NCBI GenBank assembly: GCA_025060455.1
Contig: JANXBY010000021.1
Location: 62,001-126,000 of the forward strand
Length of the DNA: 64,000 nucleotides
Source: Armatimonadota bacterium
GTDB lineage: Bacteria; Sysuimicrobiota; Sysuimicrobiia; Sysuimicrobiales; Sysuimicrobiaceae
Direction: 5' to 3'
Shown: positions 14,641-20,887 of the stretch, one piece after another
Layout: each line of letters opens with the position of its first letter
Position numbering within the stretch: the first letter of the stretch is position 1
Notes under the pieces: generated by a model
What the model saw: only the letters and a program-made list of their open reading frames with translations
Told to the model about the DNA's origin: nothing
The model's database searches: none
Position numbers and translations under genes: made by a program

Positions 14641-14990
14641 GAAGTGGGCGACCCTCCCCGGCCGTCCTCCGCCAGCGCCCCGAGCTCCTGCAGCAGCGCC
14701 GAAAGCTCCTCCTTCAGCTCCCAGAACGACGCCTCCGCCGCTTGAGCTCTTGCCGCCACCACCACCGCCTGGCCCGGGGCGAGAGGTATCTGCCGCAACA
14801 GTTCCCGGAGCCTCCTGCGCACCCGGTTCCGCACCACCGCCTTGCCGACCCGCCGCCCCACCACCACGCCCACCTTGAGAGCCTGCTGCTCGGGGCAGCG
14901 GTGTACCACCACCAGCCTGCCCGCCCGCCGGGTGCCCTGCGCGTACACCTTCTGGAACTCCCGGGCCGAACGCAGCCGCTGGGGCTTCAA
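14628..14990 (-). CDS. rnpA: Ribonuclease P protein component
   Basis: Protein cofactor of RNase P (120 aa), needed for tRNA 5' maturation. The basic signature [11 protein letters not shown] and the N-terminal [15 protein letters not shown] are typical. TTG start (LKPQRL); no strong Shine-Dalgarno is visible. It lies 21 bases after rpmH. The C-terminal 25 residues are a lineage-specific extension overlapping yidD. Confidence 0.94.
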
Positions 14991-15011
14991 GGGTTGGGAA
15001 GACAGGGCCTC

Positions 15012-15146
15012 TCAAACCGTCAGCCGTTTCCGTCCCGCCTGGCGCCGCCTGCGCAGCACGCTGCGCCCTCCCGGCGTGCGCATCCGGGCCCGGAACCCGT
15101 GCGTCCGCTTCCTGCGCCGCTTCTTTGGCTGGTAGGTGCGCTTCAC
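15012..15146 (-). CDS. rpmH: 50S ribosomal protein L34
   Basis: A 44-aa, very basic ribosomal protein. Its sequence starts [18 protein letters not shown] and contains [11 protein letters not shown], both essentially invariant in L34. GTG start with GGAGGAGGG six bases upstream. It is the first gene of the leftward rpmH-rnpA-yidD-yidC-jag-rsmG-parA-parB run. Confidence 0.98.
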
Positions 15147-15169
15147 GGTCCCTCCTCCGGTCGGCCGCT

Positions 15170-15178
15170 AGTATACCA
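15170..15178 (-). promoter_or_regulatory. Extended -10 promoter of rpmH
   Basis: On the minus strand the sequence reads TGGTATACT: a TATACT -10 hexamer (5 of 6 matches) with an extended TGn element. It lies 24 bases upstream of the rpmH GTG. No good -35 hexamer is visible, which fits an extended -10 promoter. Confidence 0.55.
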
Positions 15179-15540
15179 GCCGGCCCCACAGGCCGCCACC
15201 GGCAGCCTGTGGACAACCTGTCTGTAACCCCTCACCTTGTCCACAATCTCGCCCGTGTCCCGCGACCACCCCTCAGCCGCTTCCGAACCTTCGCCGACAC
15301 CACTCACCCACATCCACAGCTTTTTCACCGTCTGTGGATAACCCGGCCCACCCGCACCGCTTCCGCTGCTGCGTGGCGTCCTCCCGCCGCTCCCCAGCCC
15401 GAGCGAAGCCTCCGGGGTTTTTCGCGTCTTGCCGGAACACCGCAATCCTTCCCGCGAAACCGGTGAAAAATCTCCCTCGCCTCCTCCGCGTGCAGGAGTA
15501 TGCTTGTGTGTGGCCAACAGCTCGCCAGCGGGGGCGGGGA
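15179..15540. other. oriC: Gene-free origin region upstream of the HATPase gene, with DnaA boxes
   Basis: No gene is seen here. It holds a DnaA-box cluster: TGTGGACAA at 15208-15216, TTGTCCACA at 15237-15245 (inverted relative to the first), the weaker ACATCCACA at 15310-15318, and a perfect TGTGGATAA (reverse of TTATCCACA) at 15333-15341. This is the usual place for the incAB-like half of a bipartite Firmicutes-type origin. A second, weaker group lies in the dnaA-dnaN spacer. The rest (15346-15540) shows no clear element. Assignment as oriC is inferred. Confidence 0.7.
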
Positions 15541-16326
15541 ATGTCGCTGCGCGACCTCCTGACCCAGATCCTGGAGGAGCGGGAGGGCCGGCGTGAGCCC
15601 GAAGGCCCGCCCGAGGTACGGCTGGCCGTGTACGACTCACCGCTGGCGGAACCGCGAGTCATCTCGCTGTCCAGCGATGACTTCCATGACCTGGTGGGCA
15701 AGCTGGCTGCAGCCACCTTCGACCACGCGCAGCGCCGCGGAGGCCGCATCCCCTACGTGGTCATCCGGGAGATCGTGGAGAATCTCATCCACGCGTACTT
15801 CCGCAGCGCCGTGATCAGCATCAGCGAGGACGGCAACACCATCCGGATCTCCGACCAGGGGCCGGGGATCCCGGACAAGGAGCGCGCCCTGCAGCCGGGC
15901 TTCACTACCGCCACACCCACCATGCGCCGTTACATCCGCGGGGTGGGATCCGGGCTTCCCGTGGCGCGGGAGCAGCTGAGCTTCCTCGGTGGGGCCATCA
16001 CCATCGAGGACAACCTCAACGGCGGCACCGTGGTGACCCTCCGCCTGCAGTCGGAGCGTGCTCCCGCGGCGCCGGGCGCTTCCGCCCAGCCCGGCGCCGG
16101 GCTGACGGAGCGCCAGCGCCGGGTGCTCCTCCTCGTGGCGGAGATGGGATCTGCGGGGCCCACCGCGGTGGCGCGGGAGCTCGGCATCAGCCTGTCCACC
16201 GCGTACCGCGAGCTAGCGGCTCTCGAAGCCCAAGGCCTGTTGCGCGCGCAACCGCGCGGCCGCCGCACGCTCACCGAGCAGGGGGTGCGGTTCGTGGACG
16301 AGCTGTTCCGCGCACCGAAACCGTGA
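15541..16326 (+). CDS. HATPase-domain protein fused to a winged helix, upstream of dnaA
   Basis: A 261-aa protein I do not recognise as a characterised gene. Residues about 55-180 form a GHKL/HATPase_c ATP-binding domain of the anti-sigma/histidine-kinase type: N-box EIVENLIHAYF, G1 box SDQGPGIPD and G2 box RGVGSGLPVA are intact. No phosphoacceptor (DHp) domain is visible. Residues about 195-258 form a winged helix (TAVARELGISLSTAYRELAAL). The parts suggest an ATP-gated DNA-binding regulator or a serine kinase. It lies between the DnaA boxes and dnaA, reading toward dnaA. The frame is open further upstream, but ATG 15541 has a GGGGCGGGG leader and gives the natural N-terminus. Confidence 0.85.
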   Translation: MSLRDLLTQILEEREGRREPEGPPEVRLAVYDSPLAEPRVISLSSDDFHDLVGKLAAATFDHAQRRGGRIPYVVIREIVENLIHAYFRSAVISISEDGNTIRISDQGPGIPDKERALQPGFTTATPTMRRYIRGVGSGLPVAREQLSFLGGAITIEDNLNGGTVVTLRLQSERAPAAPGASAQPGAGLTERQRRVLLLVAEMGSAGPTAVARELGISLSTAYRELAALEAQGLLRAQPRGRRTLTEQGVRFVDELFRAPKP

Positions 16327-16393
16327 TCGCTTCCGTTCCGGTACTCGGTGGTGTAGTGTAGGGGCCGCGCGTAACCCCAGGGAGGACCAACCC

Positions 16394-17755
16394 ATGGAAC
16401 ACGCCTCCTCCGCGATCCCGTCGCCCGCGCAGGACCTGTGGCAGCAGGCCCTGCTCCGCCTCCAGGAGCGCCTAGGCAGGCCCGGGCTCGGCGTGGAGAT
16501 GTTCCTGAAAAGCGCCCGTGCCCTTTCCCTGGACCGCGACGCGTTGCTGGTGGCCGTGCCCAACCTGATGGCCAAGCAGTGGGTGGAGGAACGCTACCTG
16601 GCGGCCCTCCGGGAGGAGCTGTACCGCGTGGTCGGCCGTCCGGTGGACGTCCGCGTGGTGGTCTCCGACGAACCCGCGCCCGCCGAGCGCCCTCCGGCTG
16701 TCCGAGCGCCTTCCGGGGTGGACGGCATGCACCTGTCTCCCCGCTACACCTTCGAGACCTTCGTGGTGGGCTCCGGCAACCGATTCGCCCACGCGGCCGC
16801 GGTGGCGGTGGCGGAGGCCCCAGCCCGCGCCTACAACCCGCTGTTCATCTACGGCGGCGTGGGACTGGGCAAAACGCACCTCCTGCAGGCCATCGCCCAC
16901 CGCCTGCTGGCCCACCCCGTGCCCGTCCGCATCTTCTACTGCACCGGCGAACGCTTCACCAACGAGGTTATCAGCGCCATCCAGGCGGGCCGCACGGAGG
17001 ACCTGCGGCGCAAGTACCGGGGCGTGGATGTCCTCCTGATCGACGACATCCAGTTCATCGCGGGCAAACCCAGCACCCAGGAGGAGTTCTTCCACACCTT
17101 CAACGCGCTGCACGAGGCCGGCAAGCAGATCATCCTCGCCTCCGACCGTCCTCCCAAGGAGATCCCCACCCTGGAGGACCGCCTCCGCTCCCGGTTCGAG
17201 TGGGGGCTGATCGCGGACGTCCAACCACCGGACTATGAGACCCGGGTGGCCATCCTCCGCAAGAAGGCGGAGCTGGAGCGGATGACGGTTCCCCCGGAGG
17301 TGGCGGAGTTCATCGCCCAGCACTTCCAGTCCAACATCCGGGAGCTGGAGGGCGCCCTCGTGCGGGTGGTCGCCTACGCCACCCTCACCCGCGTCCCCAT
17401 CTCCGTGGACCTGGCCCGCGAGGTCCTGCGGGACATCCTCCCCCAGCACCGCCCGCAGCCCATCACCATCCAGGCCATCCAGAAGGCGGTGGCCCAGCAC
17501 TTCGGGCTGCGGGAGGAGGACATGACCGCCAAACGCCGCACCAAAGGCGTGGCTTTCCCTCGCCAGGTGGCCATGTACCTGGCCCGCGAGCTCACCGACT
17601 CCTCCCTACCGCGCATCGGGGAAGAGTTCGGAGGCCGCGACCACACCACCGTGATCCACGCCTGCGAACGGGTCCGGGCGGAGATGCAGCGCGACCCGCA
17701 CCTGGCCGCCACCGTCCACGCCCTCATCCAGCAGCTCCGCCGCGGCGGTTCGTAA
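16394..17755 (+). CDS. dnaA: Chromosomal replication initiator protein DnaA
   Basis: AAA+ initiator (453 aa) that binds DnaA boxes and melts the origin. Domain I is at residues 1-80, a short domain II linker follows, then the AAA+ core with Walker A GGVGLGKT (154-161) and Walker B VLLIDDIQF (213-221), and domain IV with the DnaA-box signature GRDHTTVIHACERV near the C-terminus. ATG start with GGGAGGA upstream. It follows the HATPase gene by 67 bases. Local base use (C above G on this strand) differs from dnaN. Confidence 0.98.
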   Translation: MEHASSAIPSPAQDLWQQALLRLQERLGRPGLGVEMFLKSARALSLDRDALLVAVPNLMAKQWVEERYLAALREELYRVVGRPVDVRVVVSDEPAPAERPPAVRAPSGVDGMHLSPRYTFETFVVGSGNRFAHAAAVAVAEAPARAYNPLFIYGGVGLGKTHLLQAIAHRLLAHPVPVRIFYCTGERFTNEVISAIQAGRTEDLRRKYRGVDVLLIDDIQFIAGKPSTQEEFFHTFNALHEAGKQIILASDRPPKEIPTLEDRLRSRFEWGLIADVQPPDYETRVAILRKKAELERMTVPPEVAEFIAQHFQSNIRELEGALVRVVAYATLTRVPISVDLAREVLRDILPQHRPQPITIQAIQKAVAQHFGLREEDMTAKRRTKGVAFPRQVAMYLARELTDSSLPRIGEEFGGRDHTTVIHACERVRAEMQRDPHLAATVHALIQQLRRGGS

Positions 17756-17850
17756 CCTGTGGACAGGAGCACGCGGGAGTGGCTCCAAACGCCCCACCAA
17801 CCCTTCCACTTCCCCACGGGGCTGCCCCTGGCCACGCACTTTCCACCGCG

Positions 17851-17881
17851 TTGTCCCCAGCCGCCGGCCCCGTCGTACAAT
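17851..17881 (+). promoter_or_regulatory. Candidate dnaN promoter
   Basis: TTGTCC (17851-17856) and TACAAT (17876-17881) form a -35/-10 pair separated by 19 bases, somewhat long. The predicted start point falls at the palindrome 17887-17902, about 100 bases before dnaN. The -35 overlaps a degenerate DnaA box (TTGTCCCCA). Confidence 0.4.
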
Positions 17882-17886
17882 GGCGG

Positions 17887-17902
17887 CGGGGAATTTTCCC
17901 CG
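17887..17902. repeat. Palindrome in the dnaA-dnaN spacer
   Basis: CGGGGAATTTTCCCCG has perfect 7-bp arms around a TT centre. It lies just downstream of the candidate dnaN -10, where an operator would act. The 233-base spacer also holds DnaA-box-like sites: TGTGGACAG at 17758-17766, TTGTGCACA at 17903-17911 and TGTGGATGA at 17984-17992 over the dnaN start. No gene is seen in the spacer. Confidence 0.5.
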
Positions 17903-17988
17903 TTGTGCACATCCCTGACGGAGGCTACGACGGAACGTCTAACACTACGCTGCCATAGCCACCTCGGGCTGACGGCGGGAGGCTGTGG

Positions 17989-19092
17989 ATGAAGGTTCGC
18001 TGCGCACAGGAGGACCTGAGTCGGGCCATGACCACGGTGGGCCGCGCGACCTCCGCCCGCGCCACCATGCCCATCCTCGCCAACGTTTTGCTAGAGACGA
18101 CAGCGGGCGGGCTGCGGGTGGTGGCCACGGACCTGGAGGTGGGCGTGCGGGTCCAGATCCCCGCGCAGGTGGAACGAGGTGGGCAGGTGACGCTGCCTGC
18201 CCGGCTGCTGGCGGAGATCGTCTCCCACCTGCACGCCGCACCCGTGTCCATCCGGGTAGAGGAAGGGTCCTCGGTGGCGGAGATCACGTGTCAGCGCGCC
18301 AGCTTCGAGCTGGTGGGGTTGCCCGCGGGTGACTTCCCACGGCTACCGGACTCGGACGTGGAGCGGGTCTGCGCCCTGCCGGGTCCCCTGCTCCGGACCA
18401 TGATCCGGCAGACCCTGTTTGCCGCGAGCACGGACGACACGCGTCCGTTCCTGGCGGGGGTGTATGTGACGGGCGAGGGGGAGGTGGTGCGGTTCGTGGC
18501 CACGGACGGTGGGCGCCTGGCGCTGCGCACAGCACGGGTCCGGATGGACAGGGCCATCAGTGCCATCGTGCCCAGCAAGACCATGCACGAGCTGGTGAGG
18601 CTGTGTGGGGCGGTGGAAGGCGAGGTGGAGGTGGGGATGGTGGATAACCAGCTGGCGTTCTCCGCGGGGGACGTCCGGCTGTTCAGCCGCCTGGTGGGCG
18701 GCCAGTTCCCCAACTACCAGCAGGTGATTCCCAAGGAGTTCAAGCAGAGGGTGCGGGTGGGCACGGAGGCGCTGTATGGGGCTCTCAGGCGGGTGGCCAT
18801 CACCGCCCGGGACTCGGCCACGGTGGTGCGCCTCGCGGCGCAGGAGGGGGTGTTGCGGCTGAGTTCCAGCACCCCGGAGGTGGGGCGGGCGTGGGAGGAG
18901 TTGGAAGCGGAAGCCTTTGGTGAGCCTATGGAGGTGGCGTTCAACGCCCGGTACCTGCTGGACGCCCTGGGGGTGGTGGAGACGGAGCAGGTGGACCTGG
19001 AGCTGACCGGCCCGCTGTCCCCCGGGGCCCTGCGGCCAGTGGGCAGCGAGGAGTACGTTTACGTGGTGGCGCCGGTGCGGGTGTACGGGTGA
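17989..19092 (+). CDS. dnaN: DNA polymerase III beta sliding clamp
   Basis: Ring-shaped processivity clamp (367 aa, three repeated clamp domains). The N-terminus MKVRCAQEDLSRAMTTVGRA and the C-terminus ending YVYVVAPVRVYG fit the family, as does the TDGGRLALR segment. ATG start; a DnaA-box-like TGTGGATGA overlaps it, and no strong Shine-Dalgarno is visible beyond GGGAGG ten bases upstream. Its stop overlaps the GTG of the next gene by 4 bases. Confidence 0.97.
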   Translation: MKVRCAQEDLSRAMTTVGRATSARATMPILANVLLETTAGGLRVVATDLEVGVRVQIPAQVERGGQVTLPARLLAEIVSHLHAAPVSIRVEEGSSVAEITCQRASFELVGLPAGDFPRLPDSDVERVCALPGPLLRTMIRQTLFAASTDDTRPFLAGVYVTGEGEVVRFVATDGGRLALRTARVRMDRAISAIVPSKTMHELVRLCGAVEGEVEVGMVDNQLAFSAGDVRLFSRLVGGQFPNYQQVIPKEFKQRVRVGTEALYGALRRVAITARDSATVVRLAAQEGVLRLSSSTPEVGRAWEELEAEAFGEPMEVAFNARYLLDALGVVETEQVDLELTGPLSPGALRPVGSEEYVYVVAPVRVYG

Positions 19093-19319: not shown

Positions 19320-20355
19320 CGTGTTCCTGATGCATTTCCGCAACCACGGCCGGCTCGAGGTGGAGTTCCGCGCAGGGGTGAACGCGGTGGTGGGCCCCAA
19401 CGGGGCTGGCAAGACGACCCTCCTGGAGGCGATCGACCTGGCGGCCACCGGCCGCAGCCACCGGGTCCGCAGGGACGTGGAGGTGGTGCAGTTCGGAGCG
19501 GACTGGGCCCTGGTGCGGGCCGGTTTCGAGGGGGCGGGCCGGGAGCACCGGCTGGAGGTGCGGGTAGAGCGCAGCGGGCTCAAGCACCTGCGGGCGGACG
19601 GCGTGCCCACCTCGCGGACAGGCCTGCTCGGGCGGGTGGTGGTGCTGTGGAGCGGGCCACAGGACACCCACGTGGTAGGGGGCCCCGCGGCGGAGCGCAG
19701 GCGCCTGCTGGACGGCGTGCTGTGCCAGCTGAGCCCCGCGTACTACGACACGCTGCTTCGGTACCACCGGGTGGTGCGGCACCGGAACAGGCTGTTGCGG
19801 GCGCGGGCGCCGGCTTCGGTGCTGGACGTGTGGGACGAGCAGCTGGTGCAGCTTGGCTGCCGACTGGTGGAGCGCCGGGCGGAGCTGGTGGCACGCCTGG
19901 CAGAACACGTGGGCAGTTGGGCCGACCGGCTGGGCTGTGGGGAGGTGGCGGTGGCTTACGTGCCCGGGTGTGCTGGGGAGGCGGCCGCGGCCAGGGAACA
20001 GGTCGCGCGGTGTCGGCGGGAGGAGTACCGCCGCGGGAAAACCCTGGTGGGGCCCCACCGCGACGAGCTGCGGATCCTCCTGAACGGCTGCGAGGCGAAG
20101 GTGTTCGCGTCCAGGGGTCAGCAGCGGGCGGTGGTCCTGGCGCTGCGGCTCGGGCAACGCGAGGTGGTGCGCGAAGAGCTGGGAGAAGACCCTGTACTTC
20201 TGTTCGACGACGTGGTGGCGGACCTGGATCGGGAGCGCACCCGCCGGCTGCTGCGCTCGCTGGAAGGAGGGCCCCAGGTGCTGGCCACTGCTACGGATAG
20301 GGGGGAGCTCCCGTGCGAGCAGGTGGTGGCCCTGGCGGGGAGGGCGGAGGGGTGA
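19306..20355 (+). CDS. recF: DNA replication and repair protein RecF
   Basis: SMC-like ABC ATPase (349 aa) that helps load RecA at single-strand gaps. Walker A is GPNGAGKT (residues 30-37), the signature is in FASRGQQRAVVLALRLGQ, and Walker B is LLFDDVVADLD. GTG start inside the upstream S4 gene. The length is slightly below the usual 360-370. It ends in a 4-base overlap with the DciA-like gene. Confidence 0.96.
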   Translation: MRVRSVFLMHFRNHGRLEVEFRAGVNAVVGPNGAGKTTLLEAIDLAATGRSHRVRRDVEVVQFGADWALVRAGFEGAGREHRLEVRVERSGLKHLRADGVPTSRTGLLGRVVVLWSGPQDTHVVGGPAAERRRLLDGVLCQLSPAYYDTLLRYHRVVRHRNRLLRARAPASVLDVWDEQLVQLGCRLVERRAELVARLAEHVGSWADRLGCGEVAVAYVPGCAGEAAAAREQVARCRREEYRRGKTLVGPHRDELRILLNGCEAKVFASRGQQRAVVLALRLGQREVVREELGEDPVLLFDDVVADLDRERTRRLLRSLEGGPQVLATATDRGELPCEQVVALAGRAEG

Positions 20356-20627
20356 AGTCCGTGCGGGAGCTGTTGGAGCGGGTGGTACCCGGGTCGGTGG
20401 CGGAGGCCGCCCGGGTGCTGCGGGCCTGGGCTCGGGTGGCCGATCAAGAAGGCCTCAGGGCTGAAGCGGACTACCGGGCCGGGCAACTCACTTTGTACGC
20501 CCGATCGCACGCGCAGGCGCAGGAGCTCGTGCTCCACACGACGCGTATCAAGTCCCTCGTCAACCAGCAGGCGGGCGCCCCCCTCGTGCGCGAGGTGCGG
20601 GTCCTGTGCCGCCCCGCAGGCGGCTGA
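20352..20627 (+). CDS. dciA: DUF721/DciA-like protein
   Basis: A 91-aa protein of the DUF721 family. In other phyla DciA assists loading of the DnaB helicase. Matches to the family include the LRAWARVADQ start and the HAQAQELVLHT region. GTG start in a GTGA overlap with recF. The position between recF and gyrB is the standard one for this gene in Actinobacteria and related lineages. Function here is inferred from family and context. Confidence 0.85.
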   Translation: MKSVRELLERVVPGSVAEAARVLRAWARVADQEGLRAEADYRAGQLTLYARSHAQAQELVLHTTRIKSLVNQQAGAPLVREVRVLCRPAGG

Positions 20628-20632
20628 GCGGG

Positions 20633-20887
20633 TTGTACCTGCACATCGGTGAGGACAGGGTGGTGCGGGCGGCGGACGTGGTGGCCATCCTGGACGTGCG
20701 GTTGGTGCGGGGCTCGGAGACCAACCAGCTGTTCTTCGAGAGGGCGGCGGCCGCAGGCCGCGTGCTGGGGCACAACCTCGCAGGGGCGCGGTCTCTGGTG
20801 GTGACCGTCCGGGGAGTGTATCCCTCAGCCATCTCCCCAACCACCCTTGCCCGAAGGGCGCGCCTGGGGCTGAAGTCGGTGCTCTGA
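20633..20887 (+). CDS. remB: RemB/DUF370-like regulatory protein
   Basis: An 84-aa protein beginning YLHIGEDRVVRAADVVAILD, the signature of the DUF370/RemA-RemB family. In Bacillus these are DNA-binding activators of biofilm matrix genes, and remB (yaaB) is also found between recF and gyrB. I prefer TTG 20633 because the family N-terminus is MYLHIG; GTG 20606 in the same frame would add nine residues. It ends 111 bases before gyrB. Confidence 0.85.
   Translation: MYLHIGEDRVVRAADVVAILDVRLVRGSETNQLFFERAAAAGRVLGHNLAGARSLVVTVRGVYPSAISPTTLARRARLGLKSVL

Follow-up and report, generated by a model that had tools for sequence, protein, structure and literature searches.

An open reading frame that immediately precedes dnaA in the window (the whole 64-kb stretch of DNA analyzed) encodes a predicted GHKL ATPase that ends in a predicted winged helix, and the linkage of this gene (here called HAT) to dnaA and oriC is stable over three phyla. 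From its position, domains, and co-inheritance we infer a role in initiation or in dnaA transcription. The reading we favor, to which we assign a probability of roughly 0.55, is that HAT is an ATP-dependent DNA-binding regulator that is co-expressed with DnaA and controls either dnaA transcription or origin firing. Most of what is understood of DnaA control comes from E. coli, B. subtilis, and Caulobacter, and according to PMC5720831 many bacteria are without identified homologues of the known DnaA regulators. Because HAT occupies the site before dnaA in three groups of bacteria, it is a good candidate for a missing control of the start of chromosome copying. The candidate is concrete and testable: HAT is present in single copy, keeps its place beside dnaA throughout entire lineages, Atopobium, Olegusella, and Olsenella species among them, and could plausibly connect cellular ATP with initiation.

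HAT is a constrained gene located between rpmH and dnaA

The HAT frame runs on the forward strand from the ATG at 15541 to the TGA at 16326 (261 residues). The original prediction placed the gene 67 bases before dnaA on the same strand and this is correct, the dnaA ATG being at 16394. Upstream of and divergent from HAT are rpmH (15012-15146), rnpA, and a yidC-type gene, and dnaA, dnaN, recF, a DciA gene, and gyrB follow downstream. The features of the region are listed below (+, forward strand).

15208..15341: left DnaA-box cluster, boxes at 15208 (-), 15237 (+), and 15333 (-, perfect), weaker boxes at 15304 and 15310
15321..15341: half-inverted DnaA-box pair, TTTTTCAC-N4-TGTGGATAA, which recurs upstream of HAT in most related loci
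15463..15497, +: second conserved element, GTGAAA-N23-GCAGGA, a candidate operator or promoter part
15541..16326, +: HAT gene, GHKL ATPase plus winged-helix open reading frame of 261 amino acids, which opens a likely dnaA operon
15541..15585, +: short helix at the N terminus (model residues 3-15), where many homologues share a brief hydrophobic motif
15604..16053, +: GHKL domain plus the beta hairpin that precedes it (residues 22-171)
15769-15783, +: N-box codons (E77-N81)
15853-15867, +: G1 box codons
15940-15954, +: G2 box codons
16096..16314, +: MarR/IclR-like winged-helix domain, predicted to bind DNA (residues 186-258)
16327..16393, +: HAT-dnaA spacer, 67 nt
16394..17755, +: dnaA (TIGR00362, 551 bits)
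17758..17992: right, weaker DnaA-box cluster in the dnaA-dnaN interval, where the third-position GC skew changes sign

Comparison with one congener gave 10, 7, and 82 differences at the first, second, and third codon positions over 259 codons (82/99 at the third position), and a second congener gave 13, 8, and 89 over 260 codons (89/110 at the third position). This excess of third-position differences indicates that HAT is a real gene under purifying selection. Note that farther downstream the DciA-type helicase-loader gene (20313-20627; Pfam DciA, 28.3 bits, cut-off 24) overlaps the end of recF, and a small RemA-like gene (20606-20887; PF04025, 27.9 bits, cut-off 26) is found between it and gyrB.

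Linkage to dnaA and distribution of HAT

The gene-neighborhood survey called for by the original prediction gave no homologues scattered away from dnaA. On the same strand as HAT, dnaA was the next gene in 29/29 loci of the order to which the window belongs and in 77/80 named loci. The three named exceptions (L054, L078, and L108) are on contigs that end within about 0.7 kb past HAT. The named loci are 80 of the 87 relatives obtained by a contig scan with search patterns from the window's phylum, and other phyla are under-sampled in this set. The position of dnaA was also examined in 80 of the 157 positive Actinomycetota, all of the weak listed matches being included. The next gene was dnaA in 71/80 and, when six cases that span the start of a circular contig were added, in 77/80. 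In those six, 18-732 nt separate the HAT match from the end of the contig and dnaA opens the contig, and in the remaining three HAT or dnaA is at a contig break.

Pairwise HAT distances over 67 loci gave r 0.853 against the DnaA distances and r 0.787 against the DnaN distances, and HAT had the smallest mean distance (0.96, versus 1.14 for DnaA and 1.23 for DnaN). In the 28 loci having all five proteins, HAT gave r values of 0.74 with DnaA, 0.76 with DnaN, 0.75 with RecF, and 0.73 with GyrB. Such similar values are expected from plain vertical descent, and the distances as a whole show that HAT is inherited vertically and strongly constrained, not that it has a special tie to DnaA. Moreover, the order of rpmH, rnpA, recF, and gyrB beside dnaA is also conserved and thus linkage alone is not proof of an initiation role.

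Conserved gene order is also the basis of a reading in which HAT is an ordinary housekeeping transcription regulator having targets unrelated to replication, held in place by general conservation of the origin region. The rpmH-dnaA-dnaN-recF-gyrB block is conserved in any case, and winged helices of the HAT type are common transcription factors. However, regulators unrelated to replication usually relocate over such evolutionary distances, whereas 0/160 placements across three phyla contradict the site before dnaA (the two sets counted may share species). We therefore consider this reading improbable.

HAT was found at E 1e-10 in 29/31 genomes of the window's order and its relatives (26/26 of those of good quality). 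The counts were 38/43 for the phylum of the window (28/28 of good quality) and 3/3 for UBP13, a second small phylum. In an evenly drawn set of Actinomycetota, HAT was present in 157/396 genomes and absent from 239/396, and it was found in 125/149 genomes of the class of Atopobium and 60/149 of that of Miltoncostaeaceae. Titles of loci L088 and L110 lead us to take these classes as Coriobacteriia and Thermoleophilia, and titles of relatives lead us to take the window's phylum as GTDB Sysuimicrobiota (CSP1-3). Only three outside matches, all from one family and one of them the UBP13 genome, were obtained from a draw of 386 genomes, 343 of which are outside the window's phylum. The titles of the 87 contig-scan relatives name Armatimonadota, ANGP1, CSP1-3, UBP13, Actinomycetota including Coriobacteriia, and other bins (some unnamed or differently labeled).

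The absence of HAT from 239/396 Actinomycetota indicates that dnaA can do without it. We inspected 16 dnaA regions from these 239 genomes, and rpmH was present in 14. The rpmH-dnaA gap was 214-726 nt in 13, indicating that HAT is simply absent, and a search of the 16 regions for a HAT-family open reading frame gave none (the best match, E 0.0058, was to the winged-helix part only). In L190 (G075:C138:9500-13200), an actinobacterium that lacks HAT, rpmH and dnaA are 2056 nt apart.

There is one strong match per genome, and the next matches were at E 1e-11 or weaker in 8/8 genomes. Those weaker matches were considered as paralogues and rejected. They fall mostly in the GHKL region, with a few in the winged helix, and we take them to be histidine kinases and other regulators. 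Viral contigs scanned with the window protein gave no relative, plasmids gave no HAT match, and phages gave one weak partial match (31%) that is annotated as a histidine kinase. These searches give no sign of a mobile gene.

Domains, ATP site, and predicted structure

The HAT protein matches HATPase_c (PF02518) over residues 72-171 (E 1.8e-14, 54.6 bits, cut-off 26.4) and HTH_IclR (PF09339) over residues 194-237 (1.7e-7, 31.3 bits, cut-off 22), and the IclR/MarR-type helix-turn-helix Pfam matches span about residues 186-255. The N, G1, and G2 boxes of the nucleotide site had been described as intact, and they are: the N box is E77...N81, G1 is DQGPGI (D105-G109), and G2 is GVGSG (G134-G138), with their key residues identical in 80/80 aligned homologues. 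The alignment (A3) consists of the window protein plus 79 others taken from 155 extracted homologues, near-duplicates and several homologues with very long linkers having been dropped. Residues invariant in the 80 rows are P38, P71, E77, N81, H84, G98, D105, G107, P108, and G109, and further G120, A124, G134, G136, G138, G151, N158, G162, and L228. The PF02518 match and the three motifs assign HAT, at the level of sequence, to the GHKL ATPase superfamily, and a nucleotide site this invariant suggests that ATP binding is important to the protein. The earlier claim that a histidine-kinase phosphoacceptor is missing also held up, as no HisKA-type or DHp domain was seen among the best 25 of 27 Pfam matches of the HAT protein or among the first 25 of 29 Pfam families matched by a 32-member homologue set.

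An AlphaFold2 model made with the 80-row alignment (mean pLDDT 88.5, pTM 0.66) opens with a short helix, which is followed by a beta hairpin and a second helix and then by a Bergerat-type sandwich, from which a linker leads to the winged helix. The C-terminal 75-80 residues of the model fit MarR structures with Z 12-13 which, together with PF09339, supports the predicted MarR/IclR-like winged-helix fold and bears out the winged helix originally proposed for this end of the protein. HAT differs from the MarR/IclR regulators in missing their ligand and dimerization parts and in having its winged helix fused to a GHKL ATPase.

The linker that joins the GHKL and winged-helix domains varies from 11 to 78 residues in the 80 aligned sequences and is ~120 residues in the Atopobiaceae protein L099. 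Linkers this variable and flexible are more in keeping with tethered modules than with rigid allostery. In Atopobiaceae and their relatives (L091-L112) the linker becomes long, and Q, P, and A are abundant in it.

A short hydrophobic motif at the N terminus is tied to the GHKL core by a second linker, also of very variable length. A strict pattern for this motif is found in 44/80 sequences versus a mean of 1.1 in shuffles, although the pattern was set after inspection of the sequences and the shuffles ignore kinship. The motif may dock a partner, DnaA or DnaN for example. In the main rival to our reading, HAT would contact DnaA or the replisome through the motif or the GHKL domain, the winged helix would only tether it to the origin, and ATP would be the switch. 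SirA, YabA, and Soj of Bacillus provide the model for such a DnaA-directed factor. The strict co-location of HAT with dnaA, the motif itself, and the linkers of varying length that flank the GHKL core are consistent with this rival. However, the motif differs among lineages (MQDFFLRL, MKNFLEKIL, and AFYPFVE types) and 36/80 sequences fail the strict pattern. We regard a DnaA-contacting factor as rather unlikely, and an anti-sigma kinase (below) or an ordinary regulator kept by gene order as less likely still.

Comparison of HAT with known proteins

When ranked by Foldseek E-value the best matches of HAT are mostly histidine-kinase catalytic cores. Sensor histidine kinases (E about 1e-7 to 1e-6) and NifL (E 4e-6) share the GHKL catalytic domain with HAT, but HAT lacks their DHp/phosphoacceptor and their sensor or membrane part and has a winged helix in place of these. 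The top structural match of the GHKL part is DIP2311 of Corynebacterium diphtheriae (PDB 3lmm; Z 15.6 over 147 residues, 2.6 A). The Foldseek alignment with chain 3lmm_C extends over 262 columns and the order of GHKL domain followed by winged helix is apparently common to both proteins, although the rmsd is large and the domains are placed differently. The solved DIP2311 chains are 477-556 residues long owing to a long N-terminal part, presumably an AlbA_2/Schlafen-type domain, that is missing from HAT. HAT has only ~24 residues before its GHKL domain and no AlbA_2 domain among the best 25 of 27 Pfam matches. Identity to DIP2311 in the aligned part is 16%, and to our knowledge DIP2311 has no linkage to dnaA. 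The parts of HAT are known kinds of domain and the order of GHKL domain and winged helix already occurs in DIP2311.

The original prediction likened the ATP-binding part to anti-sigma kinases and proposed structural comparison with SpoIIAB/RsbW. The GHKL fold, the N, G1, and G2 boxes, and the acidic general-base position are common to HAT and these proteins, and the likeness is limited to the fold and motifs. SpoIIAB fits HAT with Z 11.8 over 127 residues, which equals the fit of the CpxA histidine-kinase catalytic domain (Z 11.8) and is below that of DIP2311. The corresponding reading makes HAT a SpoIIAB/RsbW-type anti-sigma factor or serine/threonine kinase that carries an additional winged helix and would act, through partner switching, on a sigma factor or STAS protein. 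The SpoIIAB-like order within the GHKL fold (beta hairpin, helix, N-box helix), the structural fit, and the invariance of E77 and N81 are in its favor. Nevertheless, the curated SpoIIAB model (TIGR01925) scores only 26.1 bits on the HAT protein against a cut-off of 135, PF13581 (HATPase_c_2) is reached by only 2/32 family members, and the neighbors are rpmH, rnpA, and yidC plus dnaA and dnaN with no adjoining sigma or STAS gene. Together with the added winged helix, these differences make an anti-sigma kinase an improbable identity for HAT.

We found no description of the HAT gene in the open-access full-text literature, although subscription papers could hold one. PMC4255298, in what it says of dnaA and oriC, names an actinobacterial gene near oriC of another kind (DUF3566). 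DciA (Rv0004) is likewise a small conserved gene of the dnaA cluster, but it has an unrelated fold and acts on DnaB. According to PMC5720831, it was a conserved unknown of that cluster which later proved to be a replication factor.

Layout of the origin region

Six DnaA boxes having no more than one mismatch to TTATCCACA are present in the 64-kb window (base shuffles, which ignore kinship, give an expectation of 3.05 over the whole window). Three of the six, including the only perfect box, are at 15208-15341. The original prediction put HAT directly 3' of the strongest cluster. The rank of the cluster stands but the adjacency does not, since the last box ends 199 bases ahead of HAT and a second cluster is found past dnaA. 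HAT therefore sits between two box clusters, 15208-15341 and 17758-17992.

Across 30 dereplicated loci of the phylum there recurs the pair TTTTTCAC-N3/4-TGTGGATAA, or else two boxes that face each other, in most cases 170-315 nt ahead of HAT. A palindromic model of this element has a log-likelihood of 519 versus 37-44 in shuffles, which ignore kinship. At least two DnaA boxes precede HAT in 19/19 loci of the window's phylum (L033-L051) versus 29/57 other named loci, and at least one box is found between dnaA and dnaN in 14/18 loci of the phylum versus 27/52 others. Box density in 148 partly redundant loci is 4.6 per kb before HAT versus 0.41 per kb inside it.

Third-position GC skew of the coding strand is negative in HAT and dnaA of the window and positive in dnaN and recF. 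Within the phylum, positive skew was found for HAT in 3/19 loci, dnaA in 0/19, dnaN in 13/17, and recF in 15/16, but for gyrB in only 3/16. The skew is less clear in other phyla (dnaN positive in 16/51). The sign change between dnaA and dnaN indicates that replication likely starts downstream of dnaA and not at the left cluster. The Bacillus origin is bipartite with its switch at dnaA-dnaN. These data suggest a bipartite origin in the lineage of the window, also with the switch at dnaA-dnaN and with HAT and dnaA lying between the box clusters.

Proposed mechanism

GHKL proteins commonly act by ATP-driven lid closing and domain pairing. If HAT behaves as do other GHKL proteins, ATP binding would close the lid and pair two GHKL domains, so that two winged helices would meet on the DNA of the origin or dnaA-promoter region. 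Hydrolysis would release them with Glu77 as general base, a residue which we take to occupy the general-base position of SpoIIAB and the GHL ATPases. The cell's ATP state, or a partner protein, would in this way be coupled either to the expression of dnaA or to how readily DnaA reaches the origin. A more specific version, which we offer tentatively and think less likely than not, is that HAT represents an undescribed class of bacterial replication regulator, in which an ATP-gated clamp or bridge on DNA is built from a GHKL protein whose gene lies within the origin and is ancestral to several phyla. Such a protein would read the ATP state (or a partner) and set both the level of dnaA expression and the firing of the origin, perhaps by forming a bridge between the flanking DnaA-box clusters.

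Upstream element, promoter, and operon

The second conserved element of the window has the form GTGAAA-N24/25-GTAGGA in many relatives and is found upstream of HAT in many loci of the phylum. A 42-nt model of the element scores 422 versus 170-183 in shuffles (kinship ignored). This element is a candidate HAT operator, to which the winged helices might bind. It is often trailed by a GGCCAAC-like stretch. Its spacing is too wide for a sigma-70 promoter (16-18 is usual) and this assignment was rejected. Two other products of the same search were set aside: a palindromic motif that falls mostly on coding starts and a 14-nt model that also falls on coding starts in several loci. A terminator-like match at 15488-15503, within the element, was likewise discounted (one found versus a mean of 1.4 in shuffles).

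A consensus search of 14950-18050 gave no sigma-70 promoter, and the case for an operon is therefore made from spacing. The HAT-dnaA gap has a median of 41 nt and is 100 nt or less in 112/141 measurable loci (partly redundant). Such short gaps suggest that HAT and dnaA form an operon. Many Atopobiaceae-type loci have a gap of 100-650 nt, and dnaA could have its own promoter there; over L091-L112 (Atopobiaceae and relatives) the gap widens to about 100-300 nt and more.
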